Positions 4,853 to 28,119 of a DNA stretch of 32,966 bases are shown piece after piece (positions within the stretch are counted from its first letter, which is position 1; every line of letters starts with the position of its first letter). The stretch is from Lachnospiraceae bacterium (GTDB taxonomy: Bacteria > Bacillota > Clostridia > Lachnospirales > Lachnospiraceae). The position numbers were made by a program, and so were the translations under genes. The notes beneath the pieces are model-generated. The model worked only from the letters and a program-made list of their open reading frames with translations, was not told where the DNA came from and made no database searches. Where the stretch lies: the NCBI GenBank assembly GCA_021199655.1, contig JAJQHQ010000090.1, positions 1 through 32,966 of the forward strand, in the 5' to 3' direction.

Positions 4853-4917
4853 CCATTCGCTGAAAGCGAATCATACATGGATCTGCGCATATAACTGTGA
4901 AGGTACTGAACAGTTAA
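4853..4917 (+). repeat. Composite repeat: hairpin plus 25-bp palindrome (copy A1)
   Basis: The left part is a perfect 7-bp hairpin, ATTCGCT-GAA-AGCGAAT (4855-4871). About 20 bases later comes the 25-bp palindromic element (4892-4916; arms TAACTGT and ACAGTTA around GAAGGTACTGA). The same composite, with the same spacing and a diverged middle, occurs at 32334-32397, also just after a carbohydrate gene. The hairpin arms share the AGCGAAT string of the regulator-associated clusters at 5107-5161 and 6311-6364. Confidence 0.75.
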
Positions 4918-5021: not shown

Positions 5022-5106
5022 TCTCATGATATGTTCCGTGGCTGCAGGCATTTTGTCTGGGATTATAGTCTTTTGGGAAAACCATGGAATATGATACTGG
5101 AAAAAA

Positions 5107-5161
5107 GAAATTCGCTTTAAATGATTTTAAAGCGAATTTCTATCGCGATAAAGCGAATTTC
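5107..5161. promoter_or_regulatory. Operator-like cluster with three ATTCGCTTTA motifs, downstream side of the regulator
   Basis: GAAATTCGCTTTAAA (5107-5121) and its exact reverse complement (5126-5140) form a 15-bp inverted repeat with a 4-base gap. A third copy, AAAGCGAATTTC, lies at 5150-5161, 21 bases from the second. Read on the minus strand the order is direct, direct, inverted, the same as the cluster at 6311-6364 on the other side of the regulator gene. Confidence 0.6.
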
Positions 5162-5200
5162 AATCAGAGCAAAGCAAAGTAATGTAATTATTGTGTATGA

Positions 5201-6217
5201 TCAGGATTCAGAAATAACATGCGTATACATCCTTTCGATATCATCATTCATACCAACGGGAGTGAGCCTGATTTCCGGATGTTCGTTTGCAAAAACAACA
5301 AATAACTGATGAGCGAATCCCTGCCCCATCCACTGTAGTCCATCAAAGTCGATGATTACTTCCTGAAATTTTTCAAGACGGTTACACACTCTTTTGGCCT
5401 GTGACCGGGATACAGGAAATGAATCAAAAATATTTTTCATTGGAATAGTAGTTTTAACAAAACCACCGTCTACATTAGCGTATAAATCGAATACTTCCCG
5501 ACTTTCCTTGTGGGAAAAATTTGACAATGACATAAATACGCTGGTTCCTTCATTTTCTCGGGCTGCAATATCTTTAATTATGCTATTGTCATACCTGTTA
5601 ATTGTAAAAATCTTTCCATCGGAGATAATATAAAAGTCATCCATCATTTTAGAACTGAAAAAAATTCCCTCACCAGAATGATTTTTGGTATCTGTAGTGA
5701 GTTTTCCTTTGAATAGCTCGCAAATTGCGTCATCCAGAGACTCAAAACAGAAATGGTCCTTGATTTTTTTGAAAATCCCAATACCATCGTCAACAATAAC
5801 AGCTGTGGTTTTCAAATAATTCTGTTCAATATGAATGTTAAGATTTTCGGCGTTAGAATGATCCATGACGTTATTGATCATTTCGCTAAAGGTATAACTC
5901 CAGATTCGTTGTACGTTGGATGGGAGTTGTCTGATATGTTGAAATAAACATGTATCGAAAGCGTACATATCTGAGGCTAAATCTCCATTGCTTCTTGTTA
6001 AGTGATATTCATACATTTGATTGATCAATTCATACTGATTGCGTTTAACTCTGCGAATCACTCCTTGATCGACAAGCTCGTTGATATAGCGGTGTACGGT
6101 ATTCTGATTGATAGAAAAAACATCGGATACGGCCTTGGAAATGCCGGAATCTCCCTGATCTATTTTTTCCAGGAGATAGATGATAATGGATTTCTTTTTG
6201 TCTTTGTCAAAGCGCAT
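5201..6217 (-). CDS. Winged-helix regulator with GHKL ATPase and C-terminal STAS-like (DUF4325) domain
   Basis: A 338-residue protein. Residues 1-65 look like a winged helix-turn-helix (SINQNTVHRYINELVDQGVI as recognition region). Residues about 105-230 carry a GHKL ATPase: N box EMINNVMDHS (112-121), G1 DDGIGIF (143-149) and G2 SGEGIFFSSKM (181-191). The C-terminal ~100 residues match the STAS-like DUF4325 pattern (VIIDFDGLQWMGQGFAHQLF). The ATG has AGGAGG upstream. Such a chain could combine anti-sigma-like kinase, antagonist and DNA binding in one protein. It is divergent from the beta-mannosidase and AT-richer than its neighbours. Matching motif clusters on both sides are its probable binding sites. 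Domain calls are from motifs; the role in sugar control is inferred. Confidence 0.8.
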   Translation of the reverse strand: MRFDKDKKKSIIIYLLEKIDQGDSGISKAVSDVFSINQNTVHRYINELVDQGVIRRVKRNQYELINQMYEYHLTRSNGDLASDMYAFDTCLFQHIRQLPSNVQRIWSYTFSEMINNVMDHSNAENLNIHIEQNYLKTTAVIVDDGIGIFKKIKDHFCFESLDDAICELFKGKLTTDTKNHSGEGIFFSSKMMDDFYIISDGKIFTINRYDNSIIKDIAARENEGTSVFMSLSNFSHKESREVFDLYANVDGGFVKTTIPMKNIFDSFPVSRSQAKRVCNRLEKFQEVIIDFDGLQWMGQGFAHQLFVVFANEHPEIRLTPVGMNDDIERMYTHVISES

Positions 6218-6248
6218 ATGGTTTTACCTCCTGAGCATGATATTTTCG

Positions 6249-6273
6249 TAACTGTTTAGTACCTTCACAGTTT
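6249..6273 (-). repeat. 25-bp palindromic element, copy A2
   Basis: On the minus strand this reads as the same element as 4892-4916, with arms AACTGT / ACAGTT and centre GAAGGTACTAA. It lies 31 bases upstream of the regulator start codon and in the orientation of that gene. Confidence 0.75.
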
Positions 6274-6310
6274 TCATAATTTTAACTTAATATCCCCGTC
6301 TTGTCAAATA

Positions 6311-6364
6311 ATATTCGCTTTAAAAGAAACGATATTCGCTTTAAATTCAGGTAAAGCGAATATC
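6311..6364. promoter_or_regulatory. Operator-like cluster with three ATTCGCTTTA motifs between regulator and beta-mannosidase
   Basis: ATATTCGCTTTAAA (6311-6324), GATATTCGCTTTAAA (6331-6345) and the inverted TAAAGCGAATATC (6352-6364). The last two form a 13-bp inverted repeat spaced by 8 bases; the first two are 21 bases apart, two helical turns. The cluster ends about 40 bases before the mannosidase -35 box and is about 95 bases from the regulator start, so it could control both divergent genes. Confidence 0.6.
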
Positions 6365-6405
6365 TCAGATGGATATACGAGATGATAAAAACAAAGAAAA
6401 GGATT

Positions 6406-6434
6406 TTGACAAAAATAAAAAAGTACAAGACAAT
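6406..6434 (+). promoter_or_regulatory. SigA-type promoter for the beta-mannosidase
   Basis: TTGACA (6406-6411), a 17-base spacer, then GACAAT (6429-6434). The -35 box is consensus and the -10 box is moderate. The start codon is about 57 bases downstream. Confidence 0.5.
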
Positions 6435-6490
6435 TTCCTGATTCTGTGATAAAAAGATAATAGTGAATTAAAAGAAAAAATTGGGAGGAC

Positions 6491-9214
6491 ATGATGGTAC
6501 GACTTGACTTGAATGAAAACTGGAAGATGAGGGAAATCAGTAATGATCCGACAATGGAGAGCAGCCGCATGCAGAATCGCCCGGTGGGCGATGCGGCTGC
6601 CTGCGTCGCAGATTCGCAGGCGAATCTACGACATAATATGGAATTTATTCCGGCTGTTGTGCCGGGAACGGTGTATACGGATCTGCTGCGGGAAGGCAGG
6701 ATGGAAGACCCGTTCTGGAAGGATAATGAGGACGAGGCGCTTCGCCTGATGGATAAGGACTATGAGTATGTGACAGAGTTTGACTGCCCGGACGAGCTGC
6801 GTTCCTGTGAGAGAGTGCTGCTGCACTTTGACGGTGTGGATACGATCGCGGACGTCTACCTGAATAGCGTGCTGCTTGGTTCGCCGTGCAATATGCACCG
6901 CGTGTGGGAATATGAGCTGAAAGGTGCAGATAATGGTAATGGTATCCTGAAAGTGGAAGGAAATGAGCTGCGCGTAGTATTTCATTCTCCGACAAAATAT
7001 ATCGCGGAAAAATATGCAGAACGTCCGACGAAAGGAACTGCGGACGCGATGGACGGTTTTGTACACATCCGTAAGGCACACTGCATGTTTGGCTGGGACT
7101 GGGGCGCACATCTGCCGGATGCGGGGCTGTTTCGCCCGGTATCGCTGCTCGGCATCGGTGCTGCGAGGATTGACAGCGTGTATGTGACGCAGGAGCATAT
7201 CCGCAAAGACGGAGCCTCTGGGGAGATAACAAGCGTTCAGCATCCTGCTTTGGCGGGAACAGAAGTGGAGAAGGTACGGCTGCACCTTGATATCGCGACG
7301 GAATTGAGCAATGTTTGCAGTGAAAAAAATGCTGCAGAGAACGCCGCACGTTCCACTTTTGATGTGGATGCATCACCGGCATTTGAATACAGGGTAACGG
7401 TAACTGATCCGGACGGCAAAGCTTTGAGCATGACTGTTTCAGAACCAGTGATGGATATTGAGATTGATCAGCCGCAGCTCTGGTGGCCGAACGGCTACGG
7501 CGAGCAGAAGCTGTATACGGTGTCGGTGGAACTGATGGAGAGAGATTGCTCATGTGCAGGAAATGCTGAAACGGATGTATCTGCTGGCGGTGCCGTTCTC
7601 GATACCTGGACGCGCCGTATCGGTCTTCGCACCATGACGATGCACCGGGAGAAGGATCAGTGGGGCGAGTCGTTTGCCTGCCAGGTCAATGGCGTTGATA
7701 TTTTCTCGATGGGTGCGGATTATATTCCGGAGGATCATCTGCTTGGGCGTGTGACGCCGCAGACGACCCGTACGCTGCTGGAAAAGTGTAAGTGGGCGAA
7801 TTACAACGCCATCCGCGTCTGGGGCGGCGGGTATTATCCGGAAGACTGGTTTTATGATGCCTGCGATGAGCTGGGACTGGTCGTATGGCAGGACTTCATG
7901 TTCGCGTGTGCGGTCTACGATCTGACGCCGGAATTTGAGGAAAATATCCGGGCAGAGTTTGCGGATAACATCAAGAGGCTGCGTCATCACGCAAGTCTGG
8001 GACTCTGGTGCGGCAACAATGAGATGGAATCCTTTGTTGCTGAGCGCAATGAGTGGGTGACGAAGCCGCAGGAGGTGCGCGATTACCTGTTTATGTATGA
8101 GCGCGTGATTCCGGAAGAGCTGGCGAAATACGACCCGCAGACCTTTTACTGGCCGTCAAGCCCGTCGTCAGGCGGCAGCTTTGACGACCCGCAGGATCCG
8201 AACCGCGGCGATGTGCATTACTGGCAGGTATGGCACGGAGACAAGCCGTTTACGGAATATCGGAAGTATTATTTCCGCTATCTGTCCGAGTTCGGCTTCC
8301 AGTCCTTCCCGACGATGAAGACGATCGAGCAGATCAGTGATGATCCGGCTGATTACAATATTTTCTCTTATATTATGGAAAAGCATCAGCGCAACGGCAG
8401 CGCAAACGGCAAGATCATGAACTATATGCAGCAGACCTACCGTTATCCGTCTGACTTTAAGACGGTGCTCTATGCGTCGCAGCTGCTGCAGGCGGACGGT
8501 ATCCGTTATGGCGTCGAGCATTTTCGCCGGAACCGCGGACGCTGCATGGGAGCTATCTACTGGCAGCTTAATGACTGCTGGCCGGTGGCGTCCTGGTCGT
8601 CCATCGATTACTGCGGCCGCCTGAAGGCACTGCATTACTATGCGAAGCGGTTCTTTGCTCCGTTGATGATTTCCTGTGAGGAGCAGGGCCTTGTGACATC
8701 CGGGAAAGAGCTGGTGCGCGAGCACTTTGATTTTGAGAAGTCCATCCGTCTGAATGTGGCGAATGAGACGATGCACGATGAGACTGTGATCGTCCGCTGG
8801 GCGCTGCGCGACCCGTCTGCGAAGATCCTGCAGAGCGGCGAGAACGAGATTCTCGTGCCGGCGCTTACGAGCGTCTGGCTGGATAAAGTCGAGTTCCCGG
8901 ATGCGGATATTTACTGTGAATACATCAGCTACGAGTTGGAAAAAGATGGAGAGATTGTATCAGAAGGCACCGTGAACTTTTCTTATCCAAAATACTTCCG
9001 ATACGAGGATCCGCAGCTGACCTGCCGTGTGATCGGGGATGAGATTGAGGTGACGGCTTCCGCTTACGCAAAGAGCGTGGAGATCCTCAATGAGAACGAG
9101 GATCTGATCCTTTCCGACAACTACTTTGACATGAACGCCGGAACAAAACGCGTGAAGATCGAGAGCGGAGACGCTTCGAAGCTGCGCCTGCGGAGCGTGT
9201 ATGACATCCGGTGA
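6491..9214 (+). CDS. Beta-mannosidase, glycoside hydrolase family 2
   Basis: A 907-residue cytoplasmic enzyme that removes terminal beta-D-mannose from oligosaccharides. The N-terminal jelly-roll (VPGTVYTDLL near 58), the family hallmark HIRKAHCMFGWDWG (about residue 195), Ig-like and TIM-barrel domains are visible. E511 in WCGNNE is the expected acid/base and E600 in SEFGFQS the nucleophile. There is no signal peptide. GGGAGG (6483-6488) fits ATG 6494 better (5 bases) than ATG 6491. It is longer than usual: residues 17-50 are an extra, non-conserved segment encoded by palindromic repeat DNA, and there are hydrophilic insertions near 240-290 and 355-370. It probably hydrolyses substrates brought in by the upstream transporter and may be controlled by the divergent regulator. 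Confidence 0.93.
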   Translation: MMVRLDLNENWKMREISNDPTMESSRMQNRPVGDAAACVADSQANLRHNMEFIPAVVPGTVYTDLLREGRMEDPFWKDNEDEALRLMDKDYEYVTEFDCPDELRSCERVLLHFDGVDTIADVYLNSVLLGSPCNMHRVWEYELKGADNGNGILKVEGNELRVVFHSPTKYIAEKYAERPTKGTADAMDGFVHIRKAHCMFGWDWGAHLPDAGLFRPVSLLGIGAARIDSVYVTQEHIRKDGASGEITSVQHPALAGTEVEKVRLHLDIATELSNVCSEKNAAENAARSTFDVDASPAFEYRVTVTDPDGKALSMTVSEPVMDIEIDQPQLWWPNGYGEQKLYTVSVELMERDCSCAGNAETDVSAGGAVLDTWTRRIGLRTMTMHREKDQWGESFACQVNGVDIFSMGADYIPEDHLLGRVTPQTTRTLLEKCKWANYNAIRVWGGGYYPEDWFYDACDELGLVVWQDFMFACAVYDLTPEFEENIRAEFADNIKRLRHHASLGLWCGNNEMESFVAERNEWVTKPQEVRDYLFMYERVIPEELAKYDPQTFYWPSSPSSGGSFDDPQDPNRGDVHYWQVWHGDKPFTEYRKYYFRYLSEFGFQSFPTMKTIEQISDDPADYNIFSYIMEKHQRNGSANGKIMNYMQQTYRYPSDFKTVLYASQLLQADGIRYGVEHFRRNRGRCMGAIYWQLNDCWPVASWSSIDYCGRLKALHYYAKRFFAPLMISCEEQGLVTSGKELVREHFDFEKSIRLNVANETMHDETVIVRWALRDPSAKILQSGENEILVPALTSVWLDKVEFPDADIYCEYISYELEKDGEIVSEGTVNFSYPKYFRYEDPQLTCRVIGDEIEVTASAYAKSVEILNENEDLILSDNYFDMNAGTKRVKIESGDASKLRLRSVYDIR
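6561..6637 (+). repeat. Palindromic repeat inserted in frame in the beta-mannosidase gene
   Basis: Two adjacent hairpins. The first has outer arms GCAGCCGCAT (6561-6570) / ATGCGGCTGC (6591-6600) and an inner ATCGCCC-GGT-GGGCGAT (6576-6592). The second is AGATTCGC-AG-GCGAATCT (6610-6627), extendable by GTCG/CGAC past one mismatch. The right end CGAATCTACGACATAAT (6621-6637) matches the intergenic repeat at 2967-2983. It encodes roughly residues 24-49, between the conserved start (LNENWKM) and the conserved VPGTVYTDL region. Confidence 0.7.
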
Positions 9215-13459: not shown

Positions 13460-13484
13460 TGACTGTGAAGGTACTGAACAGTTA
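13460..13484 (+). repeat. 25-bp palindromic element, copy A4
   Basis: Arms TGACTGT / ACAGTTA around GAAGGTACTGA, exactly 36 bases before the metN start and in its orientation. The A-to-G change in the left arm would still pair as G-U in RNA, and flanking AG/CT extend the stem. Confidence 0.75.
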
Positions 13485-17781: not shown

Positions 17782-17806
17782 TAACTGTGAAGGTACGGAA
17801 CAGTTA
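17782..17806 (+). repeat. 25-bp palindromic element, copy A5
   Basis: Arms TAACTGT / ACAGTTA around GAAGGTACGGA, in the orientation of the response-regulator gene and exactly 36 bases before its start codon, the same distance as copy A4 to metN. Confidence 0.78.
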
Positions 17807-27983: not shown

Positions 27984-28119
27984 CGTAACTGTTCAGTACC
28001 TTCACAGTTACGAGGGGAAAGCCCATTCAAAATCGCTGCGCGATGGGGCTTTCCCCCACAAAATATACGTTTTCATACGTACTTCGCAGCAAGTGCGAAG
28101 TACTGTCCTGAATAGTTAC
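27984..28119 (-). repeat. Composite palindromic element between the DUF3990 gene and its partner
   Basis: On the minus strand, in order: subfamily B repeat (28119-28100), a perfect 10-bp hairpin GTACTTCGCA/TGCGAAGTAC (28079-28103), a long hairpin GGGGAAAGCCCAT (28014-28026) / ATGGGGCTTTCCCC (28043-28056) with one bulge, then 25-bp copy A6 (27986-28010; arms extended to CGTAACTGT / ACAGTTACG). The element fills nearly the whole gap between the two genes; its outer end touches the stop codon of the DUF3990 gene (28116-28118). Confidence 0.75.

Follow-up and report, generated by a model that had tools for sequence, protein, structure and literature searches.

The closest described systems combine the same kinds of domain in separate proteins. 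CapK and CapS form a two-gene kinase/repressor pair (Chambers et al., EMBO J 2026, PMC13373217). In the passages of that paper used here, CapK is an HTH-STAS-GHKL protein and CapS a STAS-wHTH protein with the half-site TTAA; the palindromes bound by CapS are located in its own promoter and at the next operon, and CapS releases DNA upon phosphorylation of a STAS serine (PMC13373217). According to the same passages, 348 of 443 CapK/CapS precede an immune operon, known or predicted; the paper makes no use of the term DUF4325, and a word search of it for a one-chain form yielded no such passage. SpoIIAB/SpoIIAA and the RsbW-type anti-sigma factor kinases and antagonists likewise feature a GHKL ATPase and a STAS domain (passages of PMC13373217). 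These are separate proteins, whereas the locus described here encodes a single chain. The target of SpoIIAB/SpoIIAA and RsbW-type proteins is a sigma factor, and these proteins are not known to carry a DNA-binding domain. DUF4325, the family to which the C-terminal domain of this chain belongs, is named in PMC7924643, and its Pfam name itself marks the function as unknown.

The window, i.e., the whole stretch of DNA analysed, comprises 32,966 nucleotides from the genome of a gut bacterium of the Lachnospiraceae (contig JAJQHQ010000090.1). A regulator gene is flanked on either side by a repeat array, and the relevant features are the following.

5106..5141, minus strand: hairpin like that of an intrinsic terminator, made by the downstream dyad (16 base pairs, 4-nt loop, T-rich tail)
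5110..5158, no strand: left array, downstream of the gene, with the dyad at 5110-5137 and the direct repeat at 5149-5158
5201..6217, minus strand: regulator gene, 338 aa; wHTH ~8-64, GHKL ATPase ~109-205 and DUF4325 STAS-like domain 273-327, from profile matches
6249..6272, minus strand: copy of a genome-wide short repeat in the regulator 5' leader (the ACTGTGAAGGTACTGAACAGT copy at 6251-6271)
6279..6307, minus strand: regulator promoter candidate TTGACA-17-TAAAAT (11/12), the -35 of which begins 5 bp from the nearest half-site
6313..6361, no strand: right array, upstream of the gene, with the direct repeat at 6313-6322 and the dyad at 6334-6361
6427..6455, plus strand: candidate mannosidase promoter AAGACA-17-TAAAAA, hexamers assigned by eye, 65 bp from the right array
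6491..9214, plus strand: GH2 beta-mannosidase-like gene, divergent neighbour, from a scan of the window genes

The GHKL/STAS-like identity assigned to the regulator in an earlier note on this DNA is supported for the STAS-like domain and probable for the GHKL part. The C-terminal DUF4325 (PF14213) match passes its cut-off (59.8 against 23 bits), the HATPase_c (PF02518) and HTH_45 matches stay below theirs (22.9 against 26.4 bits and 19.8 against 25.5 bits, respectively), and residues N115/N116, D143-G145-G147 and G182/G184, which we take to be the N, G1 and G2 ATP-site motifs of GHKL proteins, are invariant in 31 aligned rows. The family phrog_3364 of PHROG (function unknown) matches residues 10-234, corresponding to the wHTH and GHKL part (E = 2.4e-11), and does not reach the STAS-like domain. 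All matches to NCBIfam models are far under the cut-offs, the top match to defence-family models (E = 6.7e-5) covers the HTH only, and the best match among solved structures (E 0.0025) is a GHKL kinase. Residues 298-301, presumably the STAS phospho-acceptor position by register to SpoIIAA, read GQGF in the 31 aligned rows, except for GQAF in L038, and include no serine, threonine or tyrosine; residue 302 is a serine in a single row, L040.

As far as the passages of PMC13373217 go, the likeness to CapK/CapS extends to the HTH, GHKL and STAS domains, to palindromes in the own promoter (here located from sequence) and to a second site. In contrast, CapK/CapS are encoded by two adjacent genes, whereas here one chain has the order wHTH-GHKL-STAS; the arrays feature 21-bp repeats, a second array lies behind the gene, no partner is common, and the adjoining genes encode a permease and a mannosidase. 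The conserved phospho-acceptor serine reported for the second STAS helix of that system (passages of PMC13373217) is absent at 298-301. The regulator would work like CapK/CapS, a recently described two-protein defence switch, yet is no member of that system and apparently lacks its phosphorylation step. In a separate observation, locus L106 (G168:C77) encodes a STAS-GHKL-like protein beside a short DUF4325 protein with serines in the STAS loop, a pair which by eye resembles the two-gene CapK/VapK kind.

Mirrored arrays and the candidate regulator promoter

Six exact copies of ATTCGCTTTA occur in the window, at 5110 (+), 5128 (-), 5149 (-), 6313 (+), 6334 (+) and 6352 (-), and nine copies are found when one mismatch is allowed, against 2.55 expected from shuffles. 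The six copies make up two arrays, and the mirror-image clusters that had been proposed on both sides of the gene are thereby borne out. The clusters form one inverted repeat (5106-5158 and 6313-6365) of 53 nt, 77% complementary and 1154 nt apart. Each array consists of a 28-bp dyad, ATTCGCTTTA-N8-TAAAGCGAAT, located on the outer side (5110-5137 on the left, 6334-6361 on the right; 8-bp spacer), and of a direct copy 21 bp inward, toward the gene. The spacing of about 21 bases given for the direct copies is exactly 21 bp on either side. The direct-direct-inverted order of the three copies per side stands as well, but the direction had been mistaken: the order holds when reading away from the gene, since the two direct copies adjoin the gene on each side and the inverted copy is outermost. 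The contiguous 18-mer palindrome ATTCGCTTTAAAGCGAAT is absent from the window, the actual dyad being interrupted by its 8-bp spacer.

The arrays are locally confined. Across the 3.98-Mb genome, exact ATTCGCTTTA is found at 15 sites, 6 of which are located here, and a reversed control pattern at 3. With up to 3 mismatches allowed, the dyad core has three matches in the whole genome, as many as its reversed control; two are the exact sites of the window, and the third has 3 mismatches. In a survey of 150 genomes of the family, one per genus, the protein (E <= 1e-70) is encoded in 8 and the exact dyad, TTCGYTTTA-N8-TAAARCGAA, is present in 2 (G000 and G125), being missing from 6 of the 8 genomes encoding the protein. 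All four dyad sites in these 150 genomes flank the regulator gene, on both its sides. A LacI-type operator, serving a nearby LacI gene, was set aside on what we assume to be the dyad shape of such sites.

Other repeats are found in the same stretch. The short interspersed repeat ACTGTGAAGGTACTGAACAGT has 232 genome copies (up to 2 mismatches, both strands; reversed control 0), and maps in the window to 4894-4914 (+), 6251-6271 (-), 13462-13482 (+), 17784-17804 (+) and 27988-28008 (-). A copy in the regulator 5' leader is present in the window and in L018, and is not found there in L019 and L020. A hairpin, ATTCGC-TGAAA-GCGAAT, is located at 4855-4871, just 3' of the permease gene, and is missing at that place in L018; its words are related to the half-site, and their spacing is unlike that of the arrays.

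Homologues were collected from a contig scan (33 loci), to which the window and 8 whole-genome loci were added, for a total of 42 loci; L018, L019 and L020 share coordinates with G160, G166 and G162 and were taken as the same contigs. Arrays were searched for by a motif-blind detector, which relies on geometry only (a dyad with an 8-bp spacer and a copy 21 bp on; 200 shuffles per locus). The upstream array is detected at p <= 0.01 in 22 of the 42 loci (L037 and its identical twin L051 both counted) and at p 0.01-0.05 in 5 more. It is not detected by this geometry (p > 0.05) in 15/42 loci, four of which (L022, L023, L030 and L032) feature arrays of the same half-site at 17- or 22-bp spacing.

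The register between array and promoter was analysed in 33 of the 42 loci, nine having been dropped beforehand for a weak array; L021, L022, L023, L030 and L032 were kept despite weak scores because arrays or remnants are visible. TTGACA (up to 1 mismatch) starts 5 or 6 bp past the last half-site in 20/33 loci, and 23-27 bp past the array, about one repeat unit on, in another 6, while it is found at neither position in 7. As the promoter scan yields 7 sites against 6.0 in shuffles, support for the candidate promoter comes from the conserved register, not from the scan. An array set against the gene's own -35 is as expected of an autorepressor, and the sign of regulation would thus probably be negative. 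The suggestion that the regulator controls its own gene is well supported, at the level of sequence, by this register together with the covariation described below.

Covariation of the recognition helix with the motif

Under classes and a threshold picked after inspection, all homologues with an NQNT-H helix (22/22 de-duplicated rows) have at least two CGAAT words, on either strand, within 260 bp upstream, and none of the others do (0/20). The figures before de-duplication are 25/25 and 0/14, a count that leaves out viral loci, L050, L056 and L057. The helix label changes three times on the tree (3-4 in bootstraps), which amounts to 3-4 independent joint switches rather than 42, and the Fisher value of 2e-12 therefore overstates the covariation.

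A second helix class, SLN[ST]/SLTT, is associated with AGTTAA words, two or more of which are present in 6 of its 7 members and in 1 of the 35 others. This class includes homologues from viral contigs and the only paralogue present in the regulator's own genome (L002, 51%), which lacks the ATTCGCTTTA motif and has three AGTTAA words upstream. Six homologues, at 43-49%, are found in predicted viral contigs; four have three AGTTAA words upstream, and two, which are identical proteins, have one. Arrays of TTAACTTTA/AGTTAA were observed at L109-L112 (47-49%, predicted viral contigs), and in L109 the array lies, by eye, over a TTTACA-17-TATAGT-like promoter.

The joint variation of helix and motif finds its best explanation in recognition of the adjacent arrays by the encoded protein itself. 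Homologues devoid of the motif nearby, which the earlier note regarded as evidence against its proposal, do occur as far as the exact motif is concerned, but arrays of another motif, which tracks the recognition helix, are often present in its place.

Downstream array, neighbouring genes and alternative readings

A downstream array is present in 10 of 41 loci (the window, L018, L019, L020, L023, L026, L027, L028, L033 and L053) and was not found in the other 31, all with enough sequence; L032, where the sequence is cut off, was left out of the count. Six of the ten arrays reach p = 0.005 by the motif-blind detector, and in L020, L027, L028 and L033, where a half-site or the spacing differs, the array was recognised by eye. 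A downstream signal at 0.005 in L040 was rejected as an unrelated hairpin. The downstream-array label changes five times on the tree, at least four by well-supported branches, indicating that the array has been gained or lost repeatedly.

The downstream cluster might be a mere terminator that resembles an operator, the upstream cluster alone being regulatory. In 6 of the 10 downstream-array loci, the window among them, a T-rich tail comes after the hairpin, and a scan of the window yields 3 terminator-like sites against 1.0 expected (the upstream dyad also scored, with a poorer tail). We regard this as unlikely: the direct repeat inside the array is kept, although of no use to a terminator, and L053, L027, L028 and L033 keep the array without any T-rich tail. 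The array is read as an operator which, in some lineages, also serves as a terminator. Looping across the gene, raised in the earlier note, or bridging between both arrays may occur; a search of the literature for operators on either side of a gene combined with looping found no match.

Control of the mannosidase had also been suggested. The window, L018, L019 and L020 share the gene order permease-regulator-mannosidase, and a few pairs or triplets of loci have other neighbours in common, but no neighbour family within 4 kb is common to more than 4 of 34 loci. The 20 neighbouring ORFs scanned include GntR, ABC, PadR, SUKH, GNAT, RhuM/Fic, amidohydrolase and GH43 proteins and one IS605-type transposase. 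Among 47 genomes of the genus, the regulator (E <= 1e-60) is found in 4 and a mannosidase match (E <= 1e-200) in 33. Permease and mannosidase genes are adjacent in G156, G168 and G170, where neither regulator nor array is present. The exact dyad occurs at 8 sites in 6 of the 47 genomes: five sites are beside the regulator (G000, G160 and G166), and three stand alone before the mannosidase (G157, G164 and G165). The note would also have regarded wide occurrence of the motif apart from the regulator as evidence against its proposal; such occurrence is seen in 3/47 genus genomes, and only at the mannosidase locus.

In these three genomes, the lone array (L095, L097 and L098, at ~1501-1526) is intact, with one dyad and one or two direct repeats. 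No DUF4325 match was found in any of them (97-99% complete) and no regulator homologue at E <= 1e-5 in G157 and G164; in G165, the permease is not seen within the stretch fetched. All four half-sites are perfect in G164 and G165, where the sequence just past the array has drifted, and the further conserved blocks there correspond to the terminator side and the mannosidase promoter. The lone arrays may be young relics or else sites for another protein.

The module could serve mainly for local switching of the neighbouring beta-mannosidase gene and of the associated genes for sugar uptake, as the order shared by four genomes and the array retained before the mannosidase in three regulator-free congeners would suggest. 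This is doubtful, as most homologues adjoin other genes, the candidate mannosidase -35 and the right array are 65 bp apart (the promoter scan's own candidate, TTGACA-17-GACAAT at 6406-6434, is 44 bp away), and the relative G156 has neither array nor regulator. A sequence similar to the mannosidase promoter candidate is also found in relatives lacking the array. Mannosidase control is not family-wide, given the varying neighbours, and no array precedes the mannosidase in G156, G168 and G170, yet one is kept there in the three congeners.

Somewhat less probable still is a DNA-damage switch which, like CapK/CapS, would guard a defence function. The three kinds of domain, the palindromes in the own promoter and the six homologues in predicted viral contigs are in its favour, but the domain order differs, a single chain replaces two proteins, no serine is found at 298-301, and no defence operon is present among the ten window genes scanned.

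Finally, it is very improbable that the regulator gene resides in a small mobile element whose terminal inverted repeats are the arrays. This is a weak reading to which the 53-nt inverted repeats at either end, the patchy spread (4/47 genus and 8/150 family genomes), the varying neighbours, with an IS605-type transposase gene beside L033, and an 8-bp direct repeat at equivalent places just outside both arrays of L053 (in G125, the sole genome of its genus) lend themselves, but against which stand the absence of a recombinase from the module itself, the 31/41 loci where no downstream array was found, the fact that no second close copy was detected in any genome under the E-value limits of the family and genus surveys, gene-free relatives that differ over a wide stretch rather than by clean excision, and outside words of 4-6 bp at most shared by the other nine downstream-array loci, so that a word resembling a target-site duplication is seen in 1/10 of these loci and not at the window copy. 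Cargo of a plasmid or phage is likewise disfavoured, as no match was obtained in annotated plasmid or phage collections.

Proposed mechanism

The reading we prefer, to which we assign a probability of roughly 0.7, is that the gene encodes a one-chain transcriptional autoregulator predicted to act through both arrays by the mechanism outlined here. Among characterised repressors, the closest one targets palindromes located in the promoter of its own gene, according to passages of PMC13373217, and this was counted in favour of such an autoregulator. The winged helix would bind the half-sites of the two arrays, in each of which a direct repeat is placed two helical turns from the 28-bp dyad. Binding beside its own -35 would most likely repress the regulator promoter, and the array just past the stop codon would be bound by the same protein. 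In the lineage of the window, the downstream array would in addition form a hairpin that terminates transcription, and may contribute to bridging between both ends of the gene. DNA binding is most likely gated by ATP via the GHKL domain, presumably in response to a signal.

A bolder version, offered tentatively and held to be less likely than not, is that an ATP-gated wHTH-GHKL-STAS repressor, a one-protein and phosphorylation-free counterpart of CapK/CapS, would clamp its own gene between mirrored arrays, its specificity having been switched several times along with its operators.

For DUF4325, a family with almost no literature, the proposed autoregulator provides a prediction of both ligand and target, namely the arrays and the regulator itself, respectively. 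Because changes in helix and operator are paired, the prediction is directly testable and, if the bolder version is true, the family would offer a natural set of variants from which to read a recognition code. The locus also suggests a one-chain form of the kind of control exerted by CapK/CapS, which would necessarily work without the serine switch.
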